The notes below the pieces were generated by a model. That model searched no databases, had not been told where the DNA came from, and worked only from the letters and a program-made list of their open reading frames with translations. From assembly GCA_034190875.2 (NCBI GenBank), contig CM067355.1, positions 30,711,458-30,775,457 of the forward strand: DNA of 64,000 bases. The letters run 5' to 3'. This stretch comes from Urechis unicinctus (taxonomy: Eukaryota > Annelida > Polychaeta > Xenopneusta > Urechidae). Positions 14,603 through 64,000 of this stretch are shown in pieces; positions within the stretch are counted from its first letter, which is position 1; the number at the start of each line of letters is the position of its first letter. The translations under genes were made by a program, and so were the position numbers.

Positions 14603-14639
14603 GTGACGGTTAAAACAAACATTGAATGACCAGCTGCCA

Positions 14640-15800: not shown

Positions 15801-15834
15801 GCTAACAACACCACAAGAAACTATACCAGCGACG

Positions 15835-16680: not shown

Positions 16681-16689
16681 GCGGCAAAA

Positions 16690-19278: not shown

Positions 19279-19639
19279 GTGAATATAAATCAATGCTTAT
19301 TATAATATCCAATAATACTAGTTGATAATGCAATCTATGGTGCATTGAACATGAATAATTCCCAGTTATATTTACAAATTATCTGAAAGGGTGTCCCTGT
19401 AAAAAGTAGCCAGCAAGTATATTTTTCACAAGAATAAGAAGAGGTTGTTTTCAGGAAACTGTTTAATTTGATTTATATCCTGTTGGCATATTTTCCCGTT
19501 GCTATTTCGGTAGTTGTGTACTTTCTGTAGCTTGGATAAATAAACACGTTGCGGTGCTGTCGTTTTCTCTTCGAAGTTCTATGAGTAATATAGTTGCAGA
19601 TGACGGTTAAAAGCAACATTGAATGACCAGCTGCCATTC

Positions 19640-22650: not shown

Positions 22651-22900
22651 ATATAAATATATGTATATACATATACATTCAAAACTTATTTTCACGTATA
22701 TATTCATATATATATATATATATATTCTGACGAACACCGCTAATCGATTCACACACGCGTAAATAAACGATTTCTGCTTCGATATACCTACTTATACAAA
22801 CGCATGTGATGTGTTTACGTTTCATACCGGAACGAAACAGCTGTACTAGATCGAACAGGCACAAGTCGTCATCGGCGCATAGGTAACCTCACCTATCAAC

Positions 22901-39070: not shown

Positions 39071-39724
39071 CAGCCCACGGATGTCTCACGTGCCACTTGC
39101 CCGCGGATGTCCCACGTGCCACTTGCCCATGGATGTATGTGCGTGTCACCTGTATATATGGCACTAATTATATACCAACGAGCGGCATTTTCTTGCCATT
39201 ATCAGACTCTACGAATGTCTTGCATATTGGGCACGTTGTCGTGTGTACCTACATAAACTCCCACACCCTGAAAGTTATCACAATACTCGTACAGCAAGTT
39301 AGTAACAAACATATCATGTTTGTGTATTAAGACTCGTGATGTCTGTGGACATTGTGATAGACCTGATGTGTGCGCTGTTAAACAGGCAAAGACACTTTGC
39401 TTCTGACAGCGTGCGCTGTTTACTACCTACGATCACTCATATGCGCGCTGTAGAGGCAGGAATATTGACGACAAACTTTGCAATTTTGGCTCAAGTGGAC
39501 AAAATTCTGGAGACGATATCAACGATGGAAATTCCCGCCATTACCAGGCTCACGGAATACTACCAGAGCTAGCCAAATGGGTTGACGGGAACGAAAATAG
39601 AAACTAGAGTTAACAAAACGATTGTTATGATTCCGAAATGTTCGTGTTAGAGGATAGACATTTTATAATTTTCGAAATGCTTGAAGTATCATAATGTGTC
39701 TGTGGTTTCACAGGACAATTTTGA
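39071..39724. other. Non-coding stretch
   Basis: Begins with a twice-repeated GATGTC(T/C)CACGTGCCACTTGC (39080-39125). No gene recognised; the 78-residue frame at 39336-39572 has no known domain. Confidence 0.4.
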
Positions 39725-40634
39725 CAGCAATAATCCTGTCAAATGTGAAGTGGTTCAAAAAGCTGATATTATAACCAGCTAACTAGACTGGCTGTAATAA
39801 TGGCGCTATATTGGATAAATATTTAGCAGACAATCATTTTAATTAGCTGTTTTATTAACATCATTAGCCTGAAACTCGCTATTTGGTAAGTATGATTATC
39901 ATGACTAAAAGGCCTGGTGTCCGGTGGTACAACGTAGTATAGCGCTAACCACATGACCGTGATCCATAAGGCCTCGTATACATATTCTTATTCTTCGTTA
40001 GCAAAGCAACACTATCGGAAATCATAACGTTATAACAGAAACGAAACTAACTTTTCGTTTATGATATTCACAATGCTTGAGAAATCAATCGTGAAAATAC
40101 ACAAAAAACGATTATAAATGTTCCATGCATAGACCTTATCGTCCCCATACAAAGGGCAATATACAACTTACTCTTCGTGATTCCTGTGATCAGATGTTAC
40201 ATAGCTCCCCTAGGTGAAGGCTTACCACTACTGCGCGTGCGTACACAGGACGAATATCTCTTAGTGGAAATAAAACAGTGGGACGGTGAACGCAATAGCA
40301 TACCACTGCTGTCTCTTTTCACACCTGATAACACCTTAATCAGGAAAATGAATAATACCAAGCCTTATGGGTCACGGTCTTGCGGTTAACGCTATACTAC
40401 GTTATACCACCTAATACCAGACCTTATGGGTCATAGTCATGCAGTTACGTTATACTACGTTGTACCCACGGACACCAGTCATGATCATCATACTTACCAA
40501 ATAGCGAGTTTCTAGCTGATGTTGTTACAAAAAAACACATCCATTCAATATGGCGCAAATATTACGGCCAGCCTAGTTAGCTAGTTATAATATTAGCTTT
40601 TTGAACGACCTCACAGTTGACAGGCATATTGCTG
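39725..40634. mobile_element. 910-bp DNA transposon with about 240-bp inverted repeats
   Basis: Left arm 39725-39965 begins CAGCAATAATCCTGTCAAAT; right arm 40380-40634 ends with the mirror image (ACAGTTGACAGGCATATTGCTG). Further matching blocks in mirrored order: GTTCAAAAAGCTGATATTAT / ATATTAGCTTTTTGAAC, AGCTAACTAG / CTAGTTAGCT, GAAACTCGCTATTTGGTAAG / CTTACCAAATAGCGAGTTTC, and ATCATGACT / CAGTCATGAT. Just inside the arms are copies of a monomer: one inverted on the left (39908-39966) and about two direct on the right (40350-40480). The same monomer makes up the 59-bp satellite at 50-61 kb. No transposase; CAG...CTG termini recall hAT elements, but no matching 8-bp duplication was seen. Confidence 0.75.
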
Positions 40635-41870
40635 TAAGATATCCAGCCCACCAACTGAACGTACAGAAGCTTATAGTCATATGATCACATTTACACGACA
40701 TTGCAAAGTCGTCTGCATAATCGTTAAATGGAGAGAAGAATATTTGCATGTTCTTGCATGTTTTCAAATGTTCCCGCGCCCATTCCATCCTGTTTGTCGC
40801 TCTAACAACACGAAATCAATGGCTTGAAGATAATGCGATATATGCAATGTTTGTCCTTGGGGATCATAATCACAGGAACACATGGCGTTCAATTCGGTCT
40901 TGTTGAGGATGCGTAAAATTAGGCGAGATAGCTATCAAACATGATAGCATCATGTTTATCAACGTGTGCAATACTGTATTTGGTCTAAACCTAAAGAAAC
41001 TAACCTACCTAGGATAGGGTCATGAACCCGGTATGTAAGTGAAGCTACCAGTGGCGACAAGTATTCAAACAGTGGTGCACCTAAGTGCGAGTCAATGGCT
41101 GTTATCCCAGATCGATTACCATTAGGTGAGACTCGATCTGTTACCTAGATGAGACACGATCTGTTGCGATGATTGTAATCCCCAAGGCCGAATATTGCAC
41201 GTGTCATATCATCCTCAACGCATTGACTTCTGTGAACAAATAGGAGTCGAATGTTGTTTTATTTGTTCGGGGTTTTTTTTCTGGGATCGCCAGCTGTAAT
41301 AAAATCAGACACTATTTAACAATACTGTATCACAGCTCAGCACAAGGCGCCATTCAAACCAGACAATCTAGAGATAAAACTTGAATGCGATAATCAGGTA
41401 AAAACAGTATAGTGTTGGATATTATCCATTCATTTAGCAAGAGCGCACACATAAGCATATAAGGTCTGGGCATCAAGGCATATTGAAGAGGCTGTTCAGC
41501 CCCATATCGGCCAGTCAGGGATCATTTTGTTAATACATAACTACGTTTGAGCAGATATAAATAATGCCATCTTTAAATTTGTGCCACAAAGTTTACATGA
41601 TTGAAAATCATGTTGATAAATTTTCAACATTATTTATATGACTGATAATTTTCATGAAGTACCGTGGATAACGGTGAATCCCAAAAATCATGAACCACAC
41701 GAATGTTAGCTGTAAATCATTACAAGCTTTATAACTACCTCGCTATCTATGTGTATACTGCCGCTTTGGTTACAAAATGTAGATTTCAGAAAATCTTCAC
41801 TCATTAAAGTTTTGGGCATAATTGCATCAAGTTAGACCGACAAGCAGGAAGGGCAATTTCCATCAGCGTA
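40380..41870. repeat. Segmental duplicate A (second copy at 62280-64000)
   Basis: This block (transposon right arm, GT11 fragment, a short GATCTGTTACCTAGATGAGAC repeat and downstream non-coding sequence) recurs at the right end of the window at high identity, in the same orientation. Differences: copy B has an expanded 23-bp minisatellite and an extra 60-90 bp around 63550-63640. Confidence 0.88.
40635..40890 (-). pseudogene. GT11 fucosyltransferase fragment, copy 1
   Basis: Minus strand reads MEWAREHLKTCKNMQIFFSP, then FNDYADDFAMSCKCDHMTIS, then FCTFSWWAGYL, matching residues 289-339 of the intact GT11 protein at 42338. The equivalent of residues 255-288 is present with a short deletion (around 40805) that removes the VEKYGSNVSFVV segment. 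The C-terminal end is cut exactly where the inverted repeat of the 910-bp transposon starts (AGCA|GTAAGATATCC in the intact gene, ATTGCTG|TAAGATATCC here). The catalytic HIRRGD part is lost. A second copy lies at 62555. Confidence 0.85.
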
Positions 41871-44330: not shown

Positions 44331-45245
44331 AATCCATCGTCTTAAATCAAATAAATGAGATGACAACGTCAATTAGTACTTACTATGGTATCACGCAACA
44401 AAGTGGAGATGCACCCGCCTCGATCTTACGTGCTTTATATGATAACGTGCAGTTTTCATTACACCGAAAAGGTGTTCAATACAATGATGTATGTTGTGTC
44501 AATCAACAGTTTCAATGAGTGAAATATGTAAAAATTTTCACGTGTTAGAATTTGGACATATTTAGGAATATTTCCAATTTTATGAATCACACGAAAGTAT
44601 CAAACAGACTAGGCTATCAATCAGATGTTATGAGTCTTAATCAATATTTACTTCAGAAAAGTCGACTGCAAAATAACTAACGCGCAATCGTTCATCAACA
44701 GCTGATGCTGTTTTATGAAAAAAAAAAAACGCATCTATTGTATCTCTGAAAGCCAATAAACCCGTCCCGGGAATTGATCAGATTTCTTCTGTAACCCGTC
44801 GCTACTTCTCCAACTACATGTGTTAGGTTGAATTGTTGTTTGTTATTTAAAGGAAGGAACACGCGTCATTTACATGATTCATAATGCAGGTAATCTGAGG
44901 AATAACGAACATTATAACTGGATATTTGCAACATATAATCTCAAATGTGTTTCTCTGTATTTTCAGATTGCATTGATAGAAACAGCACAATGCTTAGGTT
45001 GGGTCTGATCTGATCCTTATTTTACACTCTTCTCATTCATAGCAAACTCACAGATTTTCACGAGTCATAATCTTTTTAAAATGCAAATATCAGGAGCACA
45101 TTTCTTTTCTCTTGAGATTGATACCACTTGCGACATACGTTACATTATTACGAGACTATGACATATATGCAGGTAACGTTTATCAATAAAAGCTCGAACA
45201 ATTGCACATAACATCCTGCCTATAGCATCATTACCAAGCTACACA
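44331..45245. other. Non-coding stretch
   Basis: No gene. The segment at about 44605-44690 (ATCAGATGTTATGAGTCTTA, then CTTCAGAAAAGTCGACTGC) is repeated at 49805-49855 at the left edge of the large satellite array. Confidence 0.45.
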
Positions 45246-45769: not shown

Positions 45770-46500
45770 AAAAAAAACAACTGCTTTACCTGCTATTGAC
45801 CATAAGCTATTCATACAGTACATTTGATAAGTACATTATGATCACGGTATTGCAAAACGAAATTATTGTGTATGTTATACCAGATTTAGCTTTGTCAATA
45901 CCCGTTAATTTCACTATTTACACCTGCTTTGACAATTATTCTAAACGTGTCCAATTGAACGTAATTATATTCTATGCTGAGACAGTGTCCTGTAATATAT
46001 CGGTTTGTTATTGAAATAGACCCAGTAGAAAAACAAACACAAGGCTACAATGATGAACAGAATATTGTTCACCATTCAAACAAATGACACGATGTCATAT
46101 AAAGCAATGCAACGTTTATATAACCAGCCGGGTAATTGGAGTTTGAGATCAATTCCAATATGTTAAATGCCAACATGTATGCAGCTTAATCCAAAGTAAT
46201 GATCTTCAAATATGTTATCCTCCACTAATAAATACTAGTAAATAAGCACACGCCGCTAGGATATTCACTTATCATTATAACTAATATTGCTGTTCTCACC
46301 TGACCACACTTAATCTCCAGCTTCTATACCACTGCTGGTACTCTTGCAGACCGTCAAGTCTCCAGGCGTAACGCAAGCCATCACATATAACACATCGCTT
46401 AATACGTTATGATAATACCACACCACTTTAGACGCTATGATAATTACACACCGCTTTAGACGTTATGATAATAGCAAATAATATGACGGGACTAACGATC
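45770..46500. repeat. Diverged relative of the array unit, left half (beside GT15)
   Basis: Aligns by eye with 51600-52200 of the array unit: TACCAGATTTAGCTT; then ATTGAAATAGACCCAGTAGA(A) with AAACACAAGGCTACAATGA against AAATAAAGACCCAATGGAAG with AACACATAACTGCAATGA; then TTGGAGTTTGAGATCAATTCC against TTGGAGTGTGATGTCAATTCC; then AATCCAAAGTAATGATCTTC against AATCCAAAGTGATATTCTTC; ending GACGTTATGATAATAGCA against GACGTTACGAAATTAGCA. The right half of the unit resumes on the far side of the GT15 gene, at about 48340. Confidence 0.65.
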
Positions 46501-46614
46501 GTCAATGCGTGGCCAGAAACGCGTACCAGCCCGTCATGAAACATATCAGAAAAATAAGTTCGACTTTGCGCAATACTCAGTGAACGATCATTTAATCTAA
46601 TCCCCAGTAGATAT

Positions 46615-47095
46615 AATACAAAGTCAATCAATGACAAGCAAAGTCAAACAATGGCAAGTATGTGCAGTGCAAAGTCAATCAATAACAAATGAATACAGTG
46701 CAAAGTCAATCAATAACAAAATAAATACAGTGTAAAGTCAAATCAACCACAAGTAATTACAGTCCAAAGTCATTCAATAACAAGTAAATACAGTGCAAAG
46801 TAAATCAATCACAAGTAAATACAGTGCAAAGTCAAAAAATTACGAGTAAATACAGTGCAAAGTCAATCAATAACAGGTAAATACAGTGCAAAAACCAATC
46901 ATTAACAAATAAATACAGTGCAAAGTCAATCAATAACAAGTAAATACAGTGCAAAGACAAGCAATAACAGGTAAATACAGTGCAAAGTCAATCAATAACA
47001 AGGTAAATGCAGTGCAAAGTAAATCAACAACAAGTAAATACAGTGCAAAGTCAAGCAATGATAAGTGAATACGGTGCAAAGTCGATATCCGATAG
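46615..47095. repeat. 31-bp minisatellite next to the GT15 stop codon
   Basis: About fifteen units of 31 bp (TAAATACAGTGCAAAGTCAA core; for example cores at 46822 and 46853). It ends only a few bases from the GT15 stop codon, so the whole 3'UTR of that gene is probably this repeat. Confidence 0.93.
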
Positions 47096-47100
47096 TGAGC

Positions 47101-48273
47101 TTATACATGTTGAACGAAAACCTGATGTTTATAAGCAACATCATGGAAATGATGAATTTGGTGTTTTGGAACAAATAAGGTGACGCCTATCGATTTTACT
47201 GCAGCATCACCCCATCTTTTGTAATAAATTCCACCAAGTCTATCAATAAAATGAACATAGTTCATGTACTGGTCGGAGAGCCAGATCGAAGTCTTAGATA
47301 GTTCGAAGTTGTTGTAGAAAATTTTTGATTTTTCCCACTCGCTGAAGAATTGGGTGTGGATTCCTGTGGAATTGATATATATATATATATATATATCAGC
47401 TGCTTCCAAAAGCCCAACTGCGCATGTGTCGAATTGTATGTTCAAGTATCCATAGAGATAATCTTTTTCGGTCATTGATTGGAAGAAATCATAGGGAACT
47501 CGACCAGTGAAATAAGAATTGTAATCTAGGCGAAGTATGTAGTCAAATAACTGCGTGATAGATCTGTAATAGACCAACAGAGCGTGAAATCGACACTTAT
47601 GTCTGTAACCTACATTATTGAAGCATTCATTATCTGGGATTTGATGACTTAAGAAGCTTGGAATCTCAAACGCAACCTTTTCAAACAACAGAAATGGATA
47701 GCCATTATTTTTGGCTCTCTGCATGCGTGGCACGAACTCATCTTCATGAAAAATGATGACTGGATATTTGAATTCGTTATTGAAATATTCATAGAAGCGT
47801 TCCAGTGAATTCAGTAATTGATCGCAAGTATCTAATTTAGCTAAGTAATAAATTGCTGCCTTTCGCTTCGATTCATTCCATCTGCTCATGATATCTCGTA
47901 AGGTGATGCAGTCATTTGCGCATGGACTGATCAAATCACTGCGGAGAATGCTTCTGTTCCAAGTTGGTGTTGTCATATCCAAGTTATACTTAGAACTTAA
48001 GTTGTAAATTCGTTCCAATGTGTTTAGGAAAGGTGCTGAATATGACGTCACAGTTGGTTTTGTCGCATTCAAGTCATATATGGAGCTTAATGTGTACATT
48101 TGGTCCTGGGTCTTTAGGACTGGTTTGATGTTTGACGTCATATACCAGAAGTATGCACACACCAAAAAAAGAACCACTACACTGACATATGCCGTTGATT
48201 TCCTATATGAGCACTGTAGTTTTCGTCCTGAAATATGATTGGGAAAACCGTTGTTTACACATAACGACGCCAT
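47101..48273 (-). CDS. GT15 alpha-1,2-mannosyltransferase-like protein (KRE2/MNT1/KTR family)
   Basis: Single exon, 390 residues from the ATG at 48273 (MASLCVNNG); an earlier in-frame ATG at 48327 adds 18. Type II anchor at about 28-45 (VSVVVLFLVCAYFWYM). GT15 enzymes transfer mannose from GDP-mannose in alpha-1,2 linkage in the Golgi and are best known from fungi. Family landmarks in order: YPVIIFHEDEF (about 170-180), YRHKCRF (223-229), RLDYNSYF (248-255), YNNFELSKTSIW (320-331), GGIYYKRWGDAAVKSI (347-362) and HQIHHFHDVAYKH (371-383). The Glu of NFE, proposed as catalytic in yeast Kre2, is kept. The metal-binding Glu of the yeast VEPD word is Asp here (RLDYN). Odd points: a TA microsatellite in frame adds IYIYIYI at 294-300, and the stem contains a 30-residue internal duplication. 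Length is normal and no break is seen. Confidence 0.85.
   Translation of the reverse strand: MASLCVNNGFPNHISGRKLQCSYRKSTAYVSVVVLFLVCAYFWYMTSNIKPVLKTQDQMYTLSSIYDLNATKPTVTSYSAPFLNTLERIYNLSSKYNLDMTTPTWNRSILRSDLISPCANDCITLRDIMSRWNESKRKAAIYYLAKLDTCDQLLNSLERFYEYFNNEFKYPVIIFHEDEFVPRMQRAKNNGYPFLLFEKVAFEIPSFLSHQIPDNECFNNVGYRHKCRFHALLVYYRSITQLFDYILRLDYNSYFTGRVPYDFFQSMTEKDYLYGYLNIQFDTCAVGLLEAADIYIYIYINSTGIHTQFFSEWEKSKIFYNNFELSKTSIWLSDQYMNYVHFIDRLGGIYYKRWGDAAVKSIGVTLFVPKHQIHHFHDVAYKHQVFVQHV
47375..47396. repeat. In-frame TA microsatellite inside the GT15 coding sequence
   Basis: Eleven or so TA units on the plus strand, encoding alternating Ile and Tyr on the minus strand. It sits between the conserved YGYLNIQFD segment and the NNFE motif, in a region that varies in length across the family. 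Confidence 0.92.
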
Positions 48274-48339
48274 TATTGATTTTCTGCAATAAAAGGTCAC
48301 GTAACGGTTAATTGTACACACTATCACATCAGCTATATT

Positions 48340-48600
48340 TCAGTAACTTTTAGACACAAAAAAGAAATATGAAGTAAACCCACCATTTCTCGCCCTACGT
48401 TCTCCCAGTAATTTAACCATTAACTAACATTCTTCTTAACCCATCCAGGCTTTCCGGCTAACCCTGCCTCAAGATATATACGAGGTAAGCTACTACCAAC
48501 TGTGGCGGGAATTATCTTCATCCTGCTGCTTTCATTAACAAGTTTGTATATAAACACTTTCAAATACAAATAATATTACCAAAAAGAGTAAATTCTATAT
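48340..48600. repeat. Diverged relative of the array unit, right half (beside GT15)
   Basis: Aligns with 52200-52400 of the array unit: AAAAAAGAAATATGAAG...CCATTTCTC; then TTCTTCTTAACCCATCCAGGCTTTCCGGCTAACC against TTCTTTTCAACTCCTTCTGGCATTCCAGTTAACG; ATATATACGAGGTAAGC against ATATATACAAGGCAAGC; and TTATCTTCATCCTGCTGCTTTCATT against TTTTCATCTCCGCTGCTTTCGTT. This also overlaps the presumed GT15 5'UTR/promoter. Confidence 0.65.
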
Positions 48601-49069: not shown

Positions 49070-49800
49070 TCTGGAGGCTTCACTACATACACTCGCTGGT
49101 TGAATCTCCACCACTGCCACACTACATACACTCGCTGGTTGAATCTCCACCACTGCCACACTACGTACACTGGCTGGTTGAGTCTCCACCACTGCCACAC
49201 TACATACACTGGCTGGTTGAGACTTCTCCACTGCCTCACTACATAGACTGGCTGGTTGCATCTCCTCCATTGCCTCACTACATACACTCGCTGGTTGGGT
49301 CTCCCCCACTGCCTCACTACATACACGGGCTGGTTGCATCTCCTCCACTGCCTCACTACATACACTCGCTGGTTGGGTCTCCTCCACGGTCTCACTACAT
49401 ACACTGGCTGGTTGCATCTCCTCCACTGCCTCACTACATACACTCGCTGGTTGGGTCTCCTCCACTGCCTAACTACATACATTGGCTGGTTGGGTCTCCC
49501 CCACTGCCTCACTACATACACTCGCTGGTTGGGTCTCCTCCACTGCCTAACTACATACATTGGCTGGTTGGGTCTCTCCCACTGCCTAACTACATACATT
49601 GGCTGGTTGGGTCTCCTCCACTGCCTCACTACATACACTCGATGGTTGAGTCTCCTCCACTGCTTCACTACATAGACTGGCTGGTTGCATCTCCTCCACT
49701 GCCTCACTACATACACTCGATGGATGAGTCTCCTCCACTGCTTCACTACATACACTCACAGGTTGGGTCGCCTTAATGGCCTCACTACATACACTGGCTG
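49070..49800. repeat. 39-bp minisatellite, about 18-19 units
   Basis: Units of exactly 39 bp with CACTACATACACTCGCTGGT followed by TGGGTCTCCTCCACTGCCT. A period of 13 codons and a biased composition leave long open frames on both strands (237 codons plus, 275 minus, and others in further frames). Variation among units is spread evenly over codon positions, arguing against selection on any frame. The array runs up to the left edge of the large satellite array. Confidence 0.95.
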
Positions 49801-50119
49801 GCTATTAATCAGATGTTATTAGTCTTAATCAATATTAACTTCAGAAAAGTCGACCACAATATAAAGAAAGTTACGGTTTCGTTTCTGTTATTACGTTATG
49901 ATTACTGATAACGTTGCTTTGCTAACGAAGAAAAAGAACAACTGCTGACATGTGATACCTCTAAGTACACATCCCATCGCGATGACAACCTACAGTGGGC
50001 TGCATATATCAGACATGTGATGTCATGTGAATCGTGACAGCCAAATTCAATTTACAGAACGGGATGGCGAGAGTCACTGTTCAGGGTCAGATCTGTCACA
50101 GTGCCTATCAATGGATCGA

Positions 50120-51440
50120 CAGTACATAACACGGTCATGTGTTTAGCGTTATACTGCATTGTACCAACGGACACCTGGCCTTATGAGTCATTGTTACATG
50201 GAGAGCGCTAGACTCTTTTGTACCATAGAACACAAGCCCTCATGGTCACGGTCATGAGATTAGCGCGATACTATGCTGAACACCGGACACCAGGGCTCAT
50301 GGGTCAGTGTCATGTGGTAAGCGCTAAACTCCATTGTACCACCAGACACCATGACTCATGGGCCAGTGTCATGTGGTAAGCGCTAAACTCTGTTGTACCA
50401 CCAGACACCAGGACTCACGGGTCAGTGTCATGTGGAAAGCGCTAAACTCTATTGTACCACCAGACACCATGACTCATGGGCCAGTGTCATGTGGTAAGCA
50501 CTAAACTCTGTTGTACCACCAGACACCAGGACTCATGGGTCAGTGTCATGTGGAAAGCGCTAAACTCTGTTGTACCACCAGACACCAGGACTCATGGGTC
50601 AGTGTCATGTGGTAAGCGCTAAACTCCATTGTACCACCAGACACCATGACTCATGGGTCAGTGTCATGTGGAAAGCGCTAAACTCTGTTGTACCACCAGA
50701 CACCAGGACTCAAGGGTCAGTGTCATGTGGTAAGCGCTAAACTCCATTGTACCACCAGACACCATGACTCATGGGCCAGTGTCATGTGGTAAGCGCTAAA
50801 CTCTGTTGTACCACCAGACACCAGGACACATGGGTCAGTGTCATGTGGAAAGCGCTAAACTCTGTTGTACCACCAGACACCAGGACTCATGGGTCAGTGT
50901 CATGTGGAAAGCGCTAAACTCTATTGTACCACCAGACACCATGACTCATGGGCCAGTGTCATGTGGTAAGCACTAAACTCTGTTGTACCACCAGACACCA
51001 GGACTCATGGGTCAGTGTCATGTGGAAAGCGCTAAACTCTGTTGTACCACCAGACACCAGGACTCATGGGTCAGTGTCATGTGGTAAGCGCTAAACTCCA
51101 TTGTACCACCAGACACCATGACTCATGGGCCAGTGTCATGTGGATAAGCGCTAAACTCCATTGTGCCACCAGACACCAGGACTCATGGGTCAGTGTCATG
51201 TGGAAAGCGCTAAACTCTGTTGTACCACCAGACACCAGGACTCATGGGTCAGTGTCATGCGAAAAGCGCTAAACTCCGTGTACCACCAGACATCAGGACT
51301 CATGGGTCAGTGTCATGTGGAAAGCGCTAGTCTCCGTTGTACCACCGGACACCAGGCCTAATGGGTCACGGTCATGTGGTTAGCGCTATAATACGTTGTA
51401 CCACCGGTCACCAGGCCTTAGGGGTCATTTTCATCTTGTA
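50120..51440. repeat. 59-bp satellite block, unit A (about 22 monomers)
   Basis: Monomer of 59 bp: CCACCAGACACCAGGACTCA, then TGGGTCAGTGTCATGTGGAA, then AGCGCTAAACTCTGTTGTA, centred on the palindrome AGCGCT. Two variants alternate in places (ACCATGACTCATGGGCC with GGTAAGC, and ACCAGGACTCATGGGTC with GGAAAGC), showing a secondary dimeric or longer periodicity. Edge monomers are the most diverged and closest to the transposon version (TTAGCGCTATACTAC, CACCGGACACCAGGCC). Confidence 0.95.
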
Positions 51441-52434
51441 AGCACTATACCGCATTTTACCACTGGACACCAAGCATTATGGGTCACTGTCATGTGGTTA
51501 GCGCTATACTACATTTTACCACCGGACACTAGGCTTTATGGGTCACAGTCATGCAGTTTGAATTATCTTGATCCAAGTAACTGGTTGATTAACAACTTTT
51601 AATGCTGTTTAATTTGCACGTTATGATTACCGTTTTATGATATGAAATAATTGTTACGAGTTACAAATCCTACCAGATTTAGCTTGCAAATACCGGAGTT
51701 GCATATTGCTTGTACGTAGCATGTTTTGCAAAGAAAACTAGTCACAAGCACTCCTAATGAACGTTACTATACTCTCTGTCTCTGTTGTCCTGAAATACCT
51801 CCGTTAGTTATTGATATAAAGACCCAATGGAAGCACAAACACATAACTGCAATGATTTATAAAACATGGACATCCTTCAAAATAAAGCTATACATCGTTA
51901 AATTTATCCAGTCTGGTTATTGGAGTGTGATGTCAATTCCTGAACGTTTAATCCAAAGTGATATTCTTCAGAGATATTATCCTCTCGTTTAAAATAACTG
52001 TAACAAATCTTAAGCCGCCAGGAAATTCACTTGTCATCCTAGCTAACATGGCTGGTCTCGTCTGACCATACCTTATCGCCAGCTTTCATACTTCAGTAAG
52101 TTCCAGACCGTCTCCAGATATAAAGTTTGCCATCACGTATAAGATATCGCGTCAGACGTTACGAAATTAGCATACAATAGTTTGAAACATAATGATCACA
52201 AGAAAAAAACATTCCACTCTTCTCAAATCAGCTTACTTCTACTAATTTATTCCATTCCTGGCGTTCTTTTCAACTCCTTCTGGCATTCCAGTTAACGATA
52301 TATACAAGGCAAGCAACTTCAGTGACTGGAATGGTTGTTTTCATCTCCGCTGCTTTCGTTTCCTAGTCTGCACTTATACACTGTCACTAAACATCACATG
52401 GAACGTATATTACTATATTACTGATTAATGAGTT

Positions 52435-52710
52435 ATCAGGTGTGGGAAGCGACAGCAGTGGTATGTTTTTCAAAATCATAATTAAGGTGTTAACAGCTGT
52501 AAAAAATGATAGTAGTGGCATACAATTAATTTCATAATTAAGGTGCTATCAGGTGTGGAAAGCGACAGCATTGGTATGCTATTCATTTTCATAATTAAGG
52601 CGTTCTAAGGTATGGAAAGTGATATCAGTGGTGTGCTATTCATTTTCATGATGAAGGTGTTCTAAGCTGTAGAAAGCGACAGCAGTGGTATGCTATTGCC
52701 TTCTATTGTG
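52435..52710. repeat. 57-bp minisatellite within the array units (also 54735-55110, 57000-57410, 59285-59800, 61310-61590)
   Basis: Units of about 57 bp with GGAAAGCGACAGCAGTGGTA and TTCATTTTCATAATTAAGG. Four to five units in A, more in the others, with about nine in D (59285-59800), where an AB dimer (GATATCAGTGGTGTGC / GACAGCAGTGGTATGC) is repeated. Copy number differs among the five higher-order units. Confidence 0.9.
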
Positions 52711-53164
52711 AAATACTCAATGGTGGAAAGCGATTGCACTATACCCCAATGTGATACCTTAAAATACTTGTTGAATTTATTTCGACTTACTTTCCCTCTC
52801 ACTCTCAATGCCAGTTCAAGCAAGATCTATGTTGTCTCCATGGTGACCATTTAATTATACTTCTTTAGTATCTGGCCTTGTTACGCACAGCGCATATTTG
52901 ACAGCTAACCAAAGACACAGACCAGCTCGTCATTATAAATCTAGTATACTGTCCACAGTATTCGAACGCGCAACTACGAATGCACACATGACAATCATAT
53001 GACTCCATAGTGTTTGTTACCAACTCGCAATGCACCGCGTTCACGTCGCACTCTTTGTATTTACTCTGAGAGACTTTCTGACCTGTGTACCTTGCTTTGC
53101 TAACGAAGAATAAGAACAACTGCTGACTTGTGATACATCTAAGTACACATCCCATCGTGATGAC

Positions 53165-53850
53165 AACCTACAGCGGCATTGAACACAAGCCCTCATGGTC
53201 ACGGTCATGAGATTAGCGCGATACTATGCTGAACACCAGACACCAGGACTCATGGGTCAGTGTCATGTGGAAAGCGCTAAACTCCATTGTACCACCAGAC
53301 ACCATGACTCATGGGCCAGTGTCATGTGGTAAGCACTAAACTCTGTTGTACCACCAGACACCAGGACTCATGGGTCAGTGTCATGTGGAAAGCGCTAAAC
53401 TCTGTTGTACCACCAGACACCAGGACTCATGGGTCAGTGTCATGTGGAAAGCGCTAAACTCTGTTGTACCACCAGACACCAGGACTCATGGGTCAGTGTC
53501 ATGTGGAAAGCGCTAAACTCTGTTGTACCACCAGACACCAGGAATCATGGGTCAGTGTCATGTGGAAAGCGCTAAACTCCGTTGTACTACCAGACACCAG
53601 GACTCATGGGTCAGTGTCATGTGGAAAGCGCTAAACTCCGTTGTACCACCAGACATCAGGACTCATGGGTCACGGTCATGTGGTTAGCGCTATAATACGT
53701 TGTACCACCGGTCACCAGGCCTTAGGGGTCATTTTCATCTTGTAAGCACTATACCGCATTTTACAACTGGACACCAAGCATTATGGGTCACTGTCATGTG
53801 GTTAGCGCTATACTACATTTTACCACCGGACACTAGGCTTTATGGGTCAC
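53165..53850. repeat. 59-bp satellite block, unit B (about 11 monomers)
   Basis: Same monomer as in unit A, with nearly identical central copies. Leading (ACACAAGCCCTCATGGTCAC) and trailing monomers match the corresponding edges of the other units. Confidence 0.93.
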
Positions 53851-55714
53851 AGTCATGCAGTTTGAATTATCTTGATCCAAGTAACTGGTTGATTAACAAC
53901 TTTTAATGCTGTTTAACTTGCACGTTATGATTACCGTTTTATGATATGAAATAATTGTTACGAGTTACAAATCCTACCAGATTTAGCTTGCAAATACCGG
54001 AGTTGCATATTGTTTGTACGTAGCATGTTTTGCAAAGAAAACTAGTCACAAGCAGTCCTAATGAACGTTACTATACTCTCTGTCTCTGTTGTCCTGAAAT
54101 ACCTCCGTTAGTTATTGAAATAAAGACCCAATGGAAGCACAAACACATAGCTGCAATGATTTATAAAACATGGACATCCATCAAAATAAAGCTATACATC
54201 GTTAAATTTATCCAGTCTGGTTATTGGAGTGTGATGTCAATTCCTGAACGTTTAATCCAAAGTGATATTCTTCAGAGATAGTATCCTCTCGTTTAAAATA
54301 ACTGTAACAAATCTTAAGCCGCCTGGAAATTCACTTGTCATCCTAGCTAACATGGCTGGTCTCGTCTGACCATACCTTATCGCCAGCTTTCATACTTCAG
54401 TAAGTTCCAGACCGTCACCAGATATAAAGTTTGCCATCACGTATAAGATATTGCGTCAGACGTTATGAAATTAGCATACAATAGTTTGAAACATAATGAT
54501 CACAAGAAAAAAACATTCCACTCTTCTCGAATCAGCTTACTTCTACTAATTTATTCCATTCCTGGCGTTCTTTTCAACTCCTTCTGACATTCCAGTTCGT
54601 GATATATACAAAGCTAGCAACTTCAGTGACTGGAATGGTTGTTTTCATCTCCGCTGCTTTCATTTCCTAGTCAGCACTTAAACGTCACTAAACATCACAT
54701 GGATATATATTACTATATTACTGATTAATGAGTTATCAGGTGTGGGAAGCGACATCAGTGGTATGTTTTTCATTATCATAATTAAGGTGTTAACAGCAGT
54801 GAAAAATGACAGTAGTGGCATACAATTCATTTCATAATTTAGGTGCTATCAGGTGTGGAAAGCGACAGCAGTGGTATGTTTTTCATTATCATAATTAAGG
54901 TGTTAACAGCAGTGAAAAATGACAGTAGTGGCATACAATTCATTTCATAATTTAGGTGCTATCAGGTGTGGAAAGCGACAGCAGTGGTATGCTATTCATT
55001 TTCATAATTAAGGCGTTCTAAGGTATGGAAAGTGATATCAGTGGTGTGCTTTTCATTTTCATGATGAAGGTGTTCTAAGCTGTAGAAAGCGACAGCAGTG
55101 GTATGCTAATGCTTTCTATGCGAAATCATCAATGGTGGAAAACGATTGCACTATACCCCAATGTGATTCCTCAACATACTTGTTAATTTATTTCGACTTA
55201 CTTTCCCTCTCACTCTCAATGCCAGTTCAAGCAAAATATATGTTGTCTCCATGGTGACCATTTAATTATACTTCTTTAGTATCTGGCCTTGTTACGCAAA
55301 GCGCATATTTGACAGCTGACCAAAGACACAGACCAGCTCGTCATTATAAATCTAGTATACTGTCCACAGCATTCGAACGCGCAACTACGAATGCACAAAT
55401 GTCCATCATATGACTACATAGTGTATGTTACCAACTCGCAATGCACCGCGTTCACCGTCCCACCGTTGTATTTACTCTGAGAGACTTTCTGACCTGTGTA
55501 CCTTGCTTTGCTAACGAAGAATAAGAACAACTACATGACTCGTGATACATCTAAGTACACATCCCATCGTGATGACAACCTACAGCGGGCTGCATATATC
55601 AGACATGTGATGTCATGTGAATCGTGACAGCCAAAACCAATTTACAGAACGGGATGGCGAGAGTCACTGTTCAGGGTCAGATCTGTCACAGTGCCTATCA
55701 ATGGATCGACAGTA

Positions 55715-56118
55715 CATAATACGGTCATGTGTTTAGCGTTATACTGCATTGTACCAACGGACACCTGGCCTTATGAGTCATTGTTACTTGGAGAGCACTA
55801 GACTCTTTTGTACCATAGAACACACAGCCCTCATGGTCACGGTCATGAGATTAGCGTGATACTATGCTGAACCACCGGACACCATGACTCATGGGTCAGT
55901 GTCATGTGGTAAGCGCTAAAACTCTGTTGTACCACCAGACACCAGGGGTCACTCATGGGTCAGTGTCATGTGGAAAGCGCTAGGCCTTAGGGGTCATTTT
56001 CATCTTGTAAGCACTATACCGCATTTTACCACTGGACACCAAGCATTGTGGGTCACTGTCATGTGGTTAGCGCTATACTACATTTTACCACCGGGCACTA
56101 GGCTTTATTGGTCACAGT
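55715..56118. repeat. 59-bp satellite block, unit C (about 6-7 monomers)
   Basis: Short block, consisting mostly of the diverged edge monomers, with one or two central-type monomers and a junction AAAGCGCTAGGCCTTAGGGG shared with unit D. Confidence 0.9.
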
Positions 56119-58014
56119 CATGCAGTTTGAATTATCTTGATCCAAGTAACTGGTTGATTAACAACTTTTAATGCTGTTTAACTTGCACGTTATGATTACC
56201 GTTTTATGATATGAAATAATTGTTACGAGTTACAAATCCTACCAGATTTAGCTTGCAAATACCGGAGTTGCATATTGTTTGTACGTAGTATGTTTTGCAA
56301 AGAAAACTAGTCACAAGCAGTCCTAATGAACGTTACTATACTCTCTGTCTCTGTTGTCATGAAATACCTCGTTTAGTTATTGAAATAAAGACCCAATGGA
56401 AGCACAAACACATAGCTGCAATGATTTATAAAACATGGACATCCATCAAAATAAAGCTATACATCGTTAAATTTATCCAGTCTGGTTATTGGAGTGTGAT
56501 GTCAATTCCTGAACGTTTAATCCAAAGTGATATTCTTCAGAGATATTATCCTCTCGTTTAAAATAACTGTAACAAATCTTAAGCCGCCTGGAAATTCACT
56601 TGTCATCCTAGCTAACATGGCTGGTCTCGTCTGACCATACCTTATCGCCAGCTTTCATACTTCAGTAAGTTCCAGACCGTCTCCAGATATAAAGTTTGCC
56701 ATCACGTATAAGATATCGCGTCAGACGTTATGAAATTAGCATACAATAGTTTGAAACATAATGATCACAAGAAAAAAACATTCCACTCTTCTCGAATCAG
56801 CTTACTTCTACTAATTTTATTCATTCCTGGCGTTCTTTTCAACTCCTTCTGACATTCCAGTTAACGATATATACAAAGCAAGCAACTTCAGTGACTGGAA
56901 TGGTTGTTTTCATCTCCGCTGCTTTCATTTCCTAGTCAGCACTTAAAAACGTCACTAAACATCACATGGATATATATTACTATATTACTGATTAATGAGT
57001 TATCAGGTGTGGGAAGCGACATCAGTGGTATGTTTTTCATTATCATAATTAAGGTGTTAACAGCTGTGAAAAATGACAGTAGTGGCATACAATTCATTTC
57101 ATAATTTAGGTGCTATCAGGTGTGGAAAGCGACAGCAGTGGTATGTTTTCATTTTCATAATTAAGGTGTCTAAGGTAGCAAAGTGAAAAATGACAGTAGT
57201 GGCATACATTCATTCATTTCATAATTTAGGATGTGCTATCAGATTGTGTTCTAAGAAAGCGACAGCAGTGGTATGCTATTCATTTTCATAATTAAGGCGT
57301 TCTAAGGTATGGAAAGTGATATCAGTGGTGTGCTCATTTCATTTTCATGATGAAGGTGTTCTAAGCTGTATGAAAGCGACAGCAGTGGTAAAGCGGCAGC
57401 AGTGGTATGCTATGCTTTCTATGCGAAATATCAATGGTGGAAAACGATTGCACTATACCCCAATGTGATTCCTCAACATACTTGTTAATTTATTTCGACT
57501 TACTTTCCCTCTCACTCTCAATGCCAGTTCAAGCAAAATATATGTTGTCTCCATGGTGACCATTTAATTATACTTCTTTAGTATCTGGCCTTGTTACGCA
57601 CAGCGCATATTTGACAGCTGACCAAAGACACAGACCAGCTCGTCATTATAAATCTAGTATACTGTCCACAGCATTCGAACGCGCAACTACGAATGCACAA
57701 ATGTCCATCATATGACTACATAGTGTATGTTACCAACTCGCAATGCACCGCGTTCACCGTCCCACCGTTGTATTTACTCTGAGAGACTTTCTGACCTGTG
57801 TACCTTGCTTTGCTAACGAAGAATAAGAACAACTACTGACTTGTGATACCTCTAAGTACACATCCCATCGTGATGACAACCTACAGCGGGCTGCATATAT
57901 CAGACATGTGATGTCATGTGAATCGTGACAGCCAAAACCAATTTACAGAACGGGATGGCGAGAGTCACTGTTCAGGGTCAGATCTGTCACAGTGCCTATC
58001 AATGGATCGACAGT

Positions 58015-58412
58015 ACATAACACGGTCATGTGTTTAGCGTTATACTGCATTGTACCAACGGACACCTGGCCTTATGAGTCATTGTTACTTGGAGAGCACT
58101 AGACTCTTTTGTACCATAGAACACAAGCCCTCATGGTCACGGTCATGAGATTAGCGTGATACTATGCTGAACACCGGACACCATGACTCATGGGTCAGTG
58201 TCATGTGGTAAGCGCTAAACTCTGTTGTACCACCAGACACCAGGACTCATGGGTCAGTGTCATGTGGAAAGCGCTAGGCCTTAGGGGTCATTTTCATCTT
58301 GTAAGCACTATACCGCATTTTACCACTGGACACCAAGCATTGTGGGTCACTGTCATGTGGTTAGCGCTATACTACATTTTACCACCGGGCACTAGGCTTT
58401 ATTGGTCACAGT
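58015..58412. repeat. 59-bp satellite block, unit D (about 6-7 monomers)
   Basis: Near-identical in arrangement to unit C, including the same AAAGCGCTAGGCCTTAGGGG fusion of two monomers, so C and D share a recent ancestor. Confidence 0.9.
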
Positions 58413-59989
58413 CATGCAGTTTGAATTATCTTGATCCAAGTAACTGGTTGATTAACAACTTTTAATGCTGTTTAACTTGCACGTTATGATTACCGTTTTA
58501 TGATATGAAATAATTGTTACGAGTTACAAATCCTACCAGATTTAGCTTGCAAATACCGGAGTTGCATATTGTTTGTACGTAGTATGTTTTGCAAGAAAAC
58601 TAGTCACAAGCAGTCCTAATGAACGTTACTATACTCTCTGTCTCTGTTGTCATGAAATACCTCGTTAGTTATTGAAATAAAGACCCAATGGAAGCACAAA
58701 CACATAGCTGCAATGATTTATAAAACATGGACATCCATCAAAATAAAGCTATACATCGTTAAATTTATCCAGTCAGGTTATTGGAGTGTGATGTCAATTC
58801 CTGAACGTTTAATCCAAAGTGATATTCTTCAGAGATATTATCCTCTCGTTTAAAATAACTGTAACAAATCTTAAGCCGCCAGGAAATTCACTTGTCATCC
58901 TAGCTAACATGGCTGGTCTCGTCTGACCATACCTTATCGCCAGCTTTCATACTTCAGTAAGTTCCAGACCGTCTCCAGATATAAAGTTTGCCATCACGTA
59001 TAAGATATCGCGTCAGACGTTATGAAATTAGTATACAATAGTTTGAAACATAATGATCACAAGAAAAAAACATTCCACTCTTCTCGAATCAGCTTACTTC
59101 TACTAATTTATTCCATTCCTGGCGTTCTTTTCAACTCCTTCTGACTTTCCAGTTAACGATATATACAAAGCAAGCAACTTCAGTGACTGGAATGGTTGTT
59201 TTCATCTCCGCTGCTTTCATTTCCTAGTCTGCACTTAAACACCGTCACTAAACATCACATGGAATATATATTACTATATTACTGATTAATGAGTTATCAG
59301 GTGTGGGAAGCGACAGCAGTGGTATGTTTTTCATAATCATAATTAAGGTGTTAACAGCTGTGAAAAATGACAGTAGTGGCATACAATTCATTTCATAATT
59401 TAGGTGCTATCAGGTGTGGAAAGCGACAGCAGTGGTATGCTATTCATTTTCATAATTAAGGCTTTCTAAGGTATGGAAAGTGATATCAGTGGTGTGCTAT
59501 TCATTTTCATGATTAAGGTGTTCTAAGCTGTAGAAAGCGACAGCAGTGGTATGCTATTCATTTTCATAATTAAGGCGTTCTAAGGTATGGAAAGTGATAT
59601 CAGTGATGTGCTATTCATTTTCATGATTAAGGTGTTCTAAGCTGTCGAAAGCGACAGCAGTGGTATGCTATTCATTTTCATAATTAAGGCGTTCTAAGGT
59701 ATGGAAAGTGACATCAGTGGTGCGCTATTCATTTTCATTATTAAGGTGTTCTAAGCTGTAGAAAGCGACAGCGATGGTATGCTATTCATTTTCATGAATA
59801 AGGTGTTATCACCATGGTGACCACATCCTTCTTGATATCTGGTGATGACAACCTACATGTGGGCTGACATATATCAGACATGTGGTGTATATGTGAATCG
59901 TGACAGCCAAAAGCAATGTACAGAACGGGATAGCGAGAGTCACTGTTCAGGGTCAGATCTGTCACAGTGCCTATCAATGGATCGACAGT

Positions 59990-60420
59990 ACATAACACGG
60001 TCATGTGTTATACTGCATTGTACCAACGGACACCTGGCCTTATGAGTCATTGTTACGTGGAAAGCGCTAGACTCATTTGTACCATAGAACACAAGCCCTC
60101 ATGGTCACGGTCATGAGATTAGCGCGATACTATGCTGTGCACCGGACACCAGGACTCATGGGTCAGTGTCATGTGGTAAGCGCTAAACTCTCTGTTGTAC
60201 CACCAGTCCACCGGGACAGTCATGGGTCGCAGTGTCATGTGGTCATGTGGAAAGCGCTAGTCTCCGTTGTACCACCGGTCACCAGGCCTTAGGGGTCATT
60301 TTCATCTTGTAAGCACTATACCGCATTTTACCACTGGACACCAAGCATTATGGGTCACTGTCATGTGGTTAGCGCTATACTACATTTTACCACCGGACAC
60401 TAGGCTTTATGGGTCACAGT
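59990..60420. repeat. 59-bp satellite block, unit E (about 7 monomers)
   Basis: Edge monomers as in the other units; central monomers are disturbed by small insertions (around 60190-60245, with GGTCATGTGG duplicated). The preceding 59790-59990 shows a rearranged junction, which explains the shorter 2008-bp spacing. Confidence 0.88.
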
Positions 60421-62554
60421 CATGCAGTTTGAATTATCTTGATCCAAGTAACTGGTTGATTAACAACTTTTAATGCTGTTTAACTTGCACGTTATGATTA
60501 CCGTTTTATGATATGAAATAATTGTTACGAGTTACAAATCCTACCAGATTTAGCTTGCAAATACCGGAGTTGCATATTGTTTGTACGTAGCATGTTTTGC
60601 AAAGAAAACTAGTCACAAGCAGTCCTAATGAACGTTACTATACTCTCTGTCTCTGTTGTCCTGAAATACCTCCGTTAGTTATTGAAATAAAGACCCAATG
60701 GAAGCACAAACACATAGCTGCAATGATTTATAAAACATGGACATCCATCAAAATAAAGCTATACATCGTTAAATTTATCCAGTCTGGTTATTGGAGTGTG
60801 ATGTCAATTCCTGAACGTTTAATCCAAAGTGATATTCTTCACAGATATTATCCTCTCGTTTAAAATAACTGTAACAAATCTTAAGCCGCCAGGAAATTCA
60901 CTTGTCATCCTAGCTAACATGGCTGGTCTCGTCTGACCATACCTTATCGCCAGCTTTCATACTTCAGTAAGTTCCAGACCGTCTCCAGATATAAAGTTTG
61001 CCATCACGTATAAGATATCGCGTCAGACGTTACGAAATTAGCATACAATAGTTTGAAACATAATGATCACAAGAAAAAAACATTCCACTCTTCTCGAATC
61101 AGCTTACTTCTACTAATTTATTCCATTCCTGGCGTTCTTTTCAACTCCTTCTGGCATTCCAGTTAACGATATATACAAAGCAAGCAACTTCAGTGACTGG
61201 AATGGTTGTTTTTCATCTCCGCTGCTTTCATTACCTAGTCTGTACTTAAACACCGTCACTAAACATCACATGGAACGTATATTACTATATTACTGATTAA
61301 TGAGTTATCAGGTGTGGGAAGCGACAGCAGTGGTATGTTTTTCATAATCATAATTAAGGTGTTAACAGCTGTGAAAAATGACAGTAGTGGCATACAATTC
61401 ATTTCATAATTTAGGTGCTATCAGGTGTGGAAAGCGACAGCAGTGGTATGCTATTCATTTTCATAATTAAGGCGTTCTAAGGTATGGAAAGTGATATCAG
61501 TGGTGTGCTATTCATTTTGATTAATGATTTAGAAAGGACAGCAGTGGTCTAAGCTGTAGAAAGCGACGACAGCAGTGGTATGCTATTGCCTTCTATTGTG
61601 AAATACTCAATGGTGGAAAACGATTGCACTATACCCCAATGTGATTCCTTATAATACTTGTTGAATTTATTTCGACTTACTTTCCCTCTCACTCTCAATG
61701 CCAGTTCAAGCAAGATCTATGTTGTCTCCATGGTGACCATCTAATTATACTTCTTTAGTATCTGGCCTTGTTACGCACAGCGCACATTTGACAGCTGACC
61801 AAAGACACAGACCAGCTCGTCATTATAAATCTAGTATACTGTCCACAGCATTCGAACGCGCAACTACGAATGCACACATGACAATCATATGACTCCATAG
61901 TGTTTGTTACCAACTCGCAATGCACCGCGTTCACCGTCGCACTGTTGTATTTACTCTGAGAGACTTTCTGACCTGTGTACCTTGCTTTGCTAACGAAGAA
62001 TAAGAACAACTGCTGACTTGTGATACATCTAAGTACACATCCCATCGTGATGACAACCTACAGCGGGCTGCATATATCAGACATGTGGTGTAATTTTTAA
62101 TCGTGACAACCAAAAGCAATGAAGAGAACCTGATGGCGAGCGTCAATGTAAAATATACCACCTAACACCAGGCTTTATGCGTCACGACCATGCGGTTATC
62201 GCTATACAACATTATGCCACCTAACACCTGGCCTTATGCGTCATGGTCTTGCAGTTAACGCTAAACTATTTTGTACCACCTAATACCAGGCCTTATGGGT
62301 CACGGTCATGCAGTTAACGCTATACCATGTTGTATCACCGGACACCAGTCATGATCATCATACTTACCAAATAGCGAGTTTCTAGCTGATGTTGTTAATA
62401 AAAGCCAATTGAAATGATTGTTCGCAGAATATCTACAAAAACACACATTCACAAAAATATTCATCCAATATGGCGCCAATATTACGGCCAGCCTAGTTAG
62501 CTAGTTATAATATCTGCTTTTTGAACGACCTCACAGTTGACAGGCATATTGCTG

Positions 62555-62815
62555 TAAGATATCCAGCTCACCAACTGAACGTACCGAAGCTTATAGTCAA
62601 ATGATAACATTTACACGACATTGCGAAGTCGTCTGCATAATCGTTAAATGGAGAGAAGAATATTTGCATGTTCTTGCATGTTTTCAAATGTTCCCGCGCC
62701 CATTCCATCCTGTTTGTCGCTCTAACAACACGAAATCAATGGCTTGAAGATAATGCGATATATGCAATGTTTGTCCTTGGGGATCATAATCACAGGAACA
62801 CATGGCGTTCAATTC
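62555..62815 (-). pseudogene. GT11 fucosyltransferase fragment, copy 2
   Basis: Nearly identical to the fragment at 40635-40890, including the deletion that removes the VEKYGSNVSFVV segment and the identical junction with the transposon end (ATTGCTG|TAAGATATCC). A few substitutions differ (for example CCAGCTCACC for CCAGCCCACC). It arose by segmental duplication after the fragment was already broken. Confidence 0.87.
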
Positions 62816-63039
62816 GGTCTTGTTGAGGATGCGTAAAATTAGGTGAGATAGCTATCAAACATGATAGCATCATGTTTATCAACGTGTACAATACTGTATT
62901 TGGTCTAAACCTAAAGAAACTAACCTACCTAGGATAGGGTCATGAACCCGGTATGTAAGTGAAGCTACCAGTGGCGACAAGTATTCAAACAGTGGTGCAC
63001 CAAAGTGTTTCAGTGCGAGTCAATGGCTGTTTTCCCAGA

Positions 63040-63335
63040 TCGATTACCAGTAGGTGAGACTCGATCTGTTACCTACGTGTGCCGCGATCTGTTACCTAGG
63101 TGTGAAACGATCTGTTACCTAGGTGTGACACGATCTGTTACCTAGGTGTGCCGCGATCTGTTACCTAGGTGTGAAACGATCTGTTACCTAGGTGTGACAC
63201 GATCTGTTACCTAGGTGTGACACGATCTGTTACCTAGGTGTGACACGATCTGTTACCTAGGTGTGACACGATCTGTTACGATCTGTTACCTAGGTGTGCC
63301 GCGATATGTTACCTAGATGTGACGCGATCTGTTGC
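63040..63335. repeat. 23-bp minisatellite, expanded in duplicate B
   Basis: About twelve units of 23 bp (CGATCTGTTACCTAGGTGTG plus ACA, GCC or AAA). The orthologous position in duplicate A (41125-41170) has only two units (CGATCTGTTACCTAGATGAG). The array therefore grew after the segmental duplication. Each unit contains the palindrome CCTAGG. Confidence 0.95.
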
Positions 63336-64000
63336 GATGATTGTAATCCCCAAAGCCGAATACTGCACGTGTCATATCATTCTCAACGCATTGACTTCTG
63401 TGAACAAATACGAGTCGAATGTTGTTTTATTTGTACGTTTTGTTTTTTCTGAGATCGCCAACTGTAATAAAATCAGACGCCATCTTAACAATACTGTATC
63501 ACAGCTCAGCACAATGCGCCATTCAAACAAGACAAACGAGAAAAACGATTCTTAATGACACAGTACGGTGATAGAATGGCGCATGACAATACGAGGAAAC
63601 ATATACCAATCAGTTAACCAATCTGTTAATGTATATCCAGAAATAAAACTTGAATGCGATAATCAGGTAACAGCAGTATAGTAATGGATAATATCCATTC
63701 ATTTAGAAAGATCGCACACATAAGCATATAAGGTCTGGGCATAAAGGCATATTGAAGAGGCTGTTCAGCCCCATATCGGGCAGTCAGGGATCATTTGAGC
63801 AGACATAAATAATGCCATCTTTTAATTTGTGCCACAAAGTTTACATGATCGAAAATCATGTTGATAAATTTTCAACATTATTATTTGACTGGAAATTTTC
63901 ATGAAGTACCGTGGATAACGTTGACTCCCAAAGACCATGAACCACACGAATGTTATCTGTAAATCATTACACGATTTATAACTACCTCGCTATCGATGTG
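63336..64000. other. Non-coding end of the window (duplicate B)
   Basis: Matches 41170-41770 with small indels. No gene recognised. Confidence 0.6.

Follow-up and report, generated by a model that had tools for sequence, protein, structure and literature searches.

Higher-order tandem array and related inverted repeats in a duplicated GT11/GT15 gene cluster of Urechis unicinctus

Local minisatellite and higher-order arrays occur in segmentally duplicated gene clusters. Here we analyze a 64,000-nucleotide stretch of the annelid Urechis unicinctus (the window; C14:30711458-30775457, where C14 is the contig carrying it), which contains a 12.7-kb array of 59-bp and 57-bp monomers at 49862-62554, adjoined by a related, shorter inverted repeat of 910 bp at 39725-40634. 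The initial annotation had taken the array for a satellite grown inside one copy of a DNA transposon.

Two of the closest described systems involve mobile elements. In Drosophila virilis, the report on Tetris and the TIR-220 satellite describes tandem repeats inside a foldback element that were amplified; this element has the ends of its terminal inverted repeats in common with another one and is regarded as mobilised (PMC4079207). The present locus resembles Tetris and TIR-220, as that text presents them, in having inverted repeats with internal tandem repeats, kb-size arrays of these repeats and rearranged forms. Unlike Tetris, the copies found here lie in one duplicated gene cluster and share one junction, and one of their ends is not an end at all. 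In the Pacific oyster, mobile elements, the Helentrons, are reported to carry satellite-like repeats and to spread them across the genome (PMC7492417). That case and the present one are alike in that an invertebrate carries short tandem arrays of satellite-like kind, but the present array is found, among the matches listed, in one cluster only.

With the arrays of segmentally duplicated clusters, the locus shares the tandem expansion of gene-flank DNA, the copy-number differences between paralogous blocks and the nested periods, and it differs from them in the many stages that stand side by side: a single 57-mer seed, small runs, a 4.3-kb intermediate and the five-unit array. The array is probably a private, locus-specific higher-order minisatellite within nested tandem and inverted segmental duplications of a cluster of Glyco_transf_11 (GT11, fucosyltransferase-type) and Glyco_transf_15 (GT15) genes. 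It is a well-preserved instance of an array that grew locally, most likely through segmental duplication within the gene cluster, which is a known kind of event.

Architecture of the array and its shorter relatives

Alignments of the arms, the interior and the edges confirm that the array and the 910-bp repeat are real and related, with E-values from 1e-20 to 0 for the arm, edge and flank matches. The segments of the array are, in order, M1 (reversed)-T-S2b-59-mers, followed by S1-57-mers-S2a-M2-T-S2b-59-mers repeated, and then by the right arm and a fragment of a GT11 gene, so that the 59-mers and 57-mers are arranged in five longer units, each bearing S1. The five copies of this 0.87-kb segment start at 51557, 53861, 56126, 58420 and 60428, with a spacing of 2.0-2.3 kb, and are mutually 97.1-98.7% alike, while the four copies of the S2a-M2-T stretch are 92.1-97.4% alike. 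The successive runs of 59-mers hold 24, 11, 5, 6, 7 and 3 monomers, as counted by profile search. In the longest run, a 413-bp stretch is repeated 472 bp further on with 97% identity; this offset comes from a separate genome match, the tandem-lag identity within the run having been set aside as blurred, probably by an indel. The segment TTTGCTAACGAAG, previously assigned to all five units, indeed occurs five times, ahead of five of the six runs of 59-mers, but is absent, together with its neighbours, at the junction 59807-59842.

The arms of the 910-bp form are about 255 bp long and 73-76% identical (39724-39979 vs 40635-40414, 73% over 256 columns), which makes it an inverted terminal repeat. 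The left arm contains the single 59-mer that had been proposed for each arm (39909-39966), but the right arm contains two (40363-40478, 2.0 copies). The outer part of the right arm is 156 bp long, compared to 206 bp in the array. The short form occurs once more at C14:30265261-30266166 (99%). M1 is complete in the other two copies of the element, and its first 100 bases recur reversed, at 69-70%, at the left edge of the array and at C14:30253302-30253397.

The search for copies with intermediate monomer numbers, suggested by the initial annotation, yields one of 4277 bp (C14:30412754-30417030), which has one S1, 9.1 copies of the 57-mer and 5.8 copies of the 59-mer. In the direction of the element, its order is left arm-59-T-M1-M2-S2a-57-1.3 kb-S1-57-mers-59-mers-right arm-GT11 fragment, and it matches the short form on either side of a 3.4-kb stretch. 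The short form lacks S2a, which sits between M2 and the 57-mer in both the 4.3-kb copy and the array. Since M2 and S2a are contiguous in these two, the missing S2a is best read as a loss, and the 910-bp form is more plausibly the product of a deletion in a longer form than the ancestor of that form. The suggestion of an unexpanded relative nearby is therefore retained insofar as the two are versions of one locus, but the short form is not well placed as the starting point.

Shared borders and duplicated blocks

The terminal arm matches the right edge of the array up to 62554, as had been noted, but the match does not stop there. It continues into the flank (40635-41753 / 62555-64000, 95.3% over 1097 aligned columns); past the end of the window, the flank is duplicated as well. 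Directly at the arm, both copies carry the truncated GT11 gene: a tblastn search of the window with the intact GT11 open reading frame (ORF) aligns residues 252-273 and 283-341 to each fragment, in two frames. The arm/GT11 junction is identical in all four right ends found, namely the short form and the array of the window, C14:30265261 and C14:30412754. The same junction, together with the similarity of the flanks past the arm, shows that the array and the short form are duplicates of one locus. Past the left arm, the remaining ~31 residues of GT11 are not found; outside the intact gene, their matches in the window are at chance level only (E 5.5 and 9.4). Each truncated fragment is also accompanied by a third, inverted GT11-like piece (41154-41266 and 63327-63435, 69-70%).

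The two edges of the array had been described as parts of one transposon arm, which the alignments contradict. The left edge corresponds to the interior by the left arm, read in reverse as stated earlier (39985-40054 with 49938-49867, 89% over 72 columns; with looser scoring, 39985-40109 with 49938-49815, 74%). The right edge fits the right arm better, with 79% over 359 columns including the flank vs 76% over 284 columns for the left arm.

The genome searches covered the 1.19-Gb assembly of 926 contigs; they score first-look candidates only and skip very common words, and the match counts are thus lower bounds. The short element has at least 104 matches, and all those listed fall within the 0.52-Mb stretch C14:30.25-30.77 Mb. 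The listed matches of S1 (at least 10), of the 59-mer stretch (at least 11), of the 57-mer stretch (at least 14) and of M2-T-S2b (at least 7) likewise all fall within this cluster and reach as far as 30.782 Mb. At the sensitivity used, the satellite is neither abundant nor dispersed genome-wide, and the widespread occurrence without transposon arms that would have refuted the initial reading is not found. Two partial copies of S1, both cut inside the segment, are signs of later rearrangement: C14:30252455-30252665 (L009) has positions 1-210 at 99% and C14:30297475-30297920 (L014) has positions 409-856 at 88%, the two probably not being halves of one copy.

The cluster contains several long paralogous blocks of high identity. 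Block A, at 38.7-49.8 kb of the window, is 91-96% identical to C14:30255773-30267220 (the R1 stretch), and the right flank of the array, continued past the window to ~C14:30785 kb, matches R1 in pieces of 81-90%. The 3' end of GT11 is followed by 59-mers and S1 at two more places, C14:30252455-30253716 and 30410340-30410965, and at the first of these an array-like left edge comes after the 3' end of GT11 and a stretch resembling 44478-44644. In the window, the left edge of the array matches 44614-44676 in the same direction and the GT15 flanks are matched as well (see below), which suggests that the array region is a degenerate third copy of the block, devoid of GT15.

Other repeats are plentiful in the region. 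The 39-bp minisatellite occupies 0.7 kb in block A (49080-49801) and ~2.4 kb in block B, on the other side of the array (C14:30783114-30785482), which means that the blocks differ in tandem-repeat length here also. Many unrelated minisatellites occur throughout the window (1-64000), with periods of 15, 23, 24, 26/52, 27, 31, 39, 42, 46 and 56 bp among others. Another duplicated pair, 14604-19386 and 19601-24172, has pieces of 91-97% identity, a match to the integrase zinc-binding family PF17921 (20279-20779) and look-alike ORFs at 17515-17898 and 22883-23266.

Source of the repeat unit

The core of the array unit is related to the flanks of GT15. This family is best known from fungi, and the ORF of the window (glycolipid 2-alpha-mannosyltransferase) stands near the GT11 ORF. 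Further copies are present at C14:30257252-30258473 (97%) and in block B, there in two parts (query 1-690 and 1179-1239). S1-57-S2a is collinear with the GT15 flanks, the gene itself being absent, with identities of 64% and 61% for block A and of 63% and 59-71% for block B. In block B, the match of the second flank continues from S1 625 into the 57-mer and into S2a 54-188, and the best flank scores of 186 and 64 bits compare with at most 32.6 and 29.7 bits in 500 first-order Markov random sequences each. A lone 57-mer-like sequence is found in the same block (C14:30782144-30782217, 77%); an unexpanded 57-bp seed thus survives there.

What S1 lacks between positions 619 and 625 corresponds to 46424-48349, that is, to the GT15 gene with a 31-bp minisatellite, and its absence may reflect an insertion in one lineage or a loss in the other. 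We have also considered that GT15 is a retrogene, as the S1 match breaks at 619/625 around the gene, but at the break the sequences align too poorly for a target duplication to be recognised.

The 59-mers were compared using 74 monomers of the 75 matches of the profile search, one being dropped as too short; the search missed one of the two right-arm monomers of the short element. Mean identities of the inner runs are 70-74% to the right arms and 76-82% to the left arms. The monomers within runs u3 and u4 are themselves only 70-71% identical, such that the means fail to separate all classes, and nearest relatives were counted instead. Each of the 60 inner monomers (array runs and C14:30252664-30253026) has another inner monomer as its nearest relative, and each of the 11 right-arm monomers, including the array's own three, has a right-arm monomer. 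These classes indicate that the expanded runs did not grow from right-arm monomers. Growth of the array out of the 59-mers that belong to the right-edge arm is accordingly not upheld, those 59-mers not being of the expanded class and the core of the unit coming from GT15 flanks. Every one of the 60 inner monomers is closer to the left-arm monomer than to any from the right arms, and it is possible that they share an origin with it, which would speak slightly for growth inside a transposon.

Table 1. Features of the window discussed in the text
Feature	Coordinates	Strand	Evidence or remarks
Flank left of the short inverted repeat	39137..39724	+	right part (~39500-39724) homologous to dispersed loci, contiguous with left arm
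Left inverted arm	39725..39979	+	holds one 59-mer (reversed)
T segment TTTGCTAACGAAGAATAAGA, reversed	39985..40009	-	
M1 interior	40010..40240	+	segment mapping
M2 segment and single 57-mer, reversed	40241..40360	-	segment mapping
Two 59-mers and right inverted arm	40353..40634	+	tandem repeat search, alignment
GT11 fragment, two pieces in different frames	40630..40871	-	tblastn; breaks at arm junction after WWAGYLTA
Intact GT11 ORF, 372 aa	42338..43456	-	Pfam PF01531, E 1.9e-31
GT15 flank homologous to S1 62-619	45833..46423	+	64%, E 8e-53
GT15 ORF, one open frame, absent from array unit	47101..48339	-	Pfam PF01793, E 3.1e-30
Other GT15 flank, homologous to S1 625-825	48350..48557	+	61%, E 4e-8; longer match in block B
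39-bp minisatellite ending block A, directly left of array region	49080..49801	+	tandem repeat search
Left edge of array	49802..49938	+	49802-49864 vs 44614-44676, 90%; 49815-49910 is M1 reversed; 49914-49938 is T
S2b (49939-50129) and largest 59-mer run	49939..51558	+	24 monomers by profile search
Higher-order region: S1 five times, always with 57-mers after it, and S2a-M2-T-S2b and 59-mers in the intervals	51557..61301	+	
Junction: one unit without S2a, M2, T and start of S2b	59807..59842	+	
Last 57-mers, S2a, M2, T, S2b	61306..62149	+	
Three arm-class 59-mers and right arm	62156..62554	+	outer part 62349-62554
Second GT11 fragment copy, two pieces, one with internal stop	62550..62791	-	tblastn; identical arm junction

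Transposition, duplication and the history of the locus

A simple way to discriminate between a transposon and duplicated DNA is to ask whether homology stops at the end of the arm. The outer right arm alone has at least 18 matches, of which, among those listed, nine are in the cluster and nine on C11, C2, C15 and C1, the latter all partial (positions 46-138 of 206) and 78-88% alike; one of the loci (L024), used as query, lists further places on C7, C4, C5 and C11. Ten dispersed loci were fetched, seven of the nine from the right-arm search and three from the L024 search. Single BLAST alignments run across the left end at 39725 in L021 (39510-39859), L022 (39500-39859), L028 (39500-39794), L024 (39684-39794) and L025 (39653-39794). 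The outside sequence 39400-39724 taken alone scores 79.7, 78.3, 79.7 and 54.0 bits in L021, L022, L023 and L028, respectively, with controls (200 first-order Markov random sequences per locus) reaching at most 32.6; the score is marginal in L024 (32.6 vs 28.3 bits for the control) and not above random controls in L025, L026, L027, L029 and L030. For the last 100 bases before the left end, compared at five loci, L024, L025 and L021 exceed all 1000 shuffles, while L026 and L027 do not. Homology past the left end is thus clear in four of the ten loci, with L024 marginal and L025 positive in one test of two. As L021-L023 are mutually related, the crossing represents about two to three independent lineages.

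The inverted arms are therefore not bounded by two element ends, the left one being crossed by homology. Inverted arms are found in none of the ten dispersed loci at E 1e-3, and none of the listed element matches (104 of 104 inside the cluster) is a two-armed copy at an unrelated site. No target-site duplication is seen by eye, the flanks ...ACAATTTTGA and TAAGATATCC being without a direct repeat at the given borders, and the left flank of the element is the same in R1 and R2. The dispersed arm sequence was also considered as a coding exon, but the listed frames are short and nothing in them is recognised by eye, no family search having been made.

One alternative is a single insertion into GT11 whose left flank was later lost by rearrangement, followed by segmental copying, so that the array would lie in transposon-derived DNA. 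The right junction does interrupt coding sequence, and the dispersed arm sequence may be mobile. We nevertheless regard this course of events as improbable, because the left arm runs on, past the proposed end of the element, into the same dispersed sequence, and the array unit has GT15-flank DNA as its core.

The second alternative is the initial reading itself, namely a foldback-like or miniature inverted-repeat transposable element (MITE)-like DNA transposon with single 59-mers that expanded to a satellite in one copy, as in Tetris. Several observations agree with it: the inverted arms of ~255 bp, the right arm that stops abruptly against coding sequence, the stretches shared between the arms and loci on other contigs, the lack of homology outside the left end in L026 and L027 (two tests) and in L029 and L030 (one test), and the 76-82% resemblance of the inner monomers to the left-arm monomer. 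It is largely refuted by the crossing of the left end (54-80 bits in L021, L022, L023 and L028 vs at most 32.6), and neither a two-armed copy outside the cluster among the ten fetched loci, nor an end duplication by eye, nor the other half of the GT11 gene is found. Restriction of the listed matches to one cluster and the one shared junction are further difficulties for growth in a DNA transposon, which we consider decidedly unlikely. That the array is partly an assembly artefact, with units misjoined or multiplied, is very unlikely, since, although the array is known from the assembly alone and S1 units that are 97-99% alike are hard to assemble, the units differ in length and in their number of 59-mers (24, 11, 5, 6, 7, 3), one has a private deletion, and the flanks are collinear with other copies.

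Segmental duplication would account for what is seen at the locus. A piece of older dispersed sequence stands as an inverted pair, the right member of which is joined to a truncated GT11 gene; about 0.5 Mb contain this junction four times, along with its surroundings; at one of the four places, between blocks A and B, there is a diverged GT15 locus copy that lacks the GT15 gene itself; and in it the 57- and 59-bp stretches form tandem runs and S1-57-S2a-M2-T-S2b-59 is repeated about five times. The events would have followed in roughly the same order, from the inverted pair at GT11 through the copying of the junction and the GT15-less block copy to the tandem runs and units. The short monomers may have multiplied by replication slippage and the 2.0-2.3-kb units by unequal crossing-over, while the 910-bp form would have arisen by internal deletion in a longer form like the 4.3-kb copy, and GT15 was presumably lost at the array locus rather than inserted elsewhere. 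Transposition would not be necessary at any step. That a satellite with nested periods was born in this manner from gene-flank DNA, the inverted and block duplications offering misaligned templates, is a proposal to which we give an even chance. An inversion of the interior by recombination between the arms was also considered, as the interior is reversed in the array, but becomes superfluous if the ancestral form had the same segments, mirrored, in its two halves. The support for such halves is partial: in the 4.3-kb copy, the left half has M2-S2a-57 reversed and the right half S1-57-59 forward, and segment mapping finds no second S2a-M2-T there.

A number of points weigh against the duplication scenario. 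The GT15 flanks leave the origin of T, M2, S2b and the 59-mer unaccounted for, and a single-copy 59-mer seed is not found outside the arms and arrays. In the R1 block, the second GT15 flank is not found at E 1e-3 in the flank search, although segment mapping matches S1 623-855 to it at 63%. The arms include part of a dispersed sequence, which may be an ancient mobile element in its own right. Segments were mapped on three fetched stretches, the ~366 kb between them being covered by the genome search alone. The dating is not clean either, because the 92.1-97.4% of the S2a-M2-T copies overlaps the 95.3% of the flank duplicates, even though the S1 copies are at 97.1-98.7%, and in the 4.3-kb copy S1 is at only 82% to the array S1 with surrounding pieces at 85-93%, which does not fit one clock. 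Judging from these sequence identities, the placing of block duplication before unit amplification is likely but not settled.

The present analysis moves the case from a satellite born of a transposon towards one born of segmentally duplicated gene flanks. With seed, intermediate and expanded form at one locus, the cluster is suited to the study of the earliest growth of an array. If the interpretation is true, the stages kept within 0.53 Mb could allow the amplification steps to be ordered and dated.

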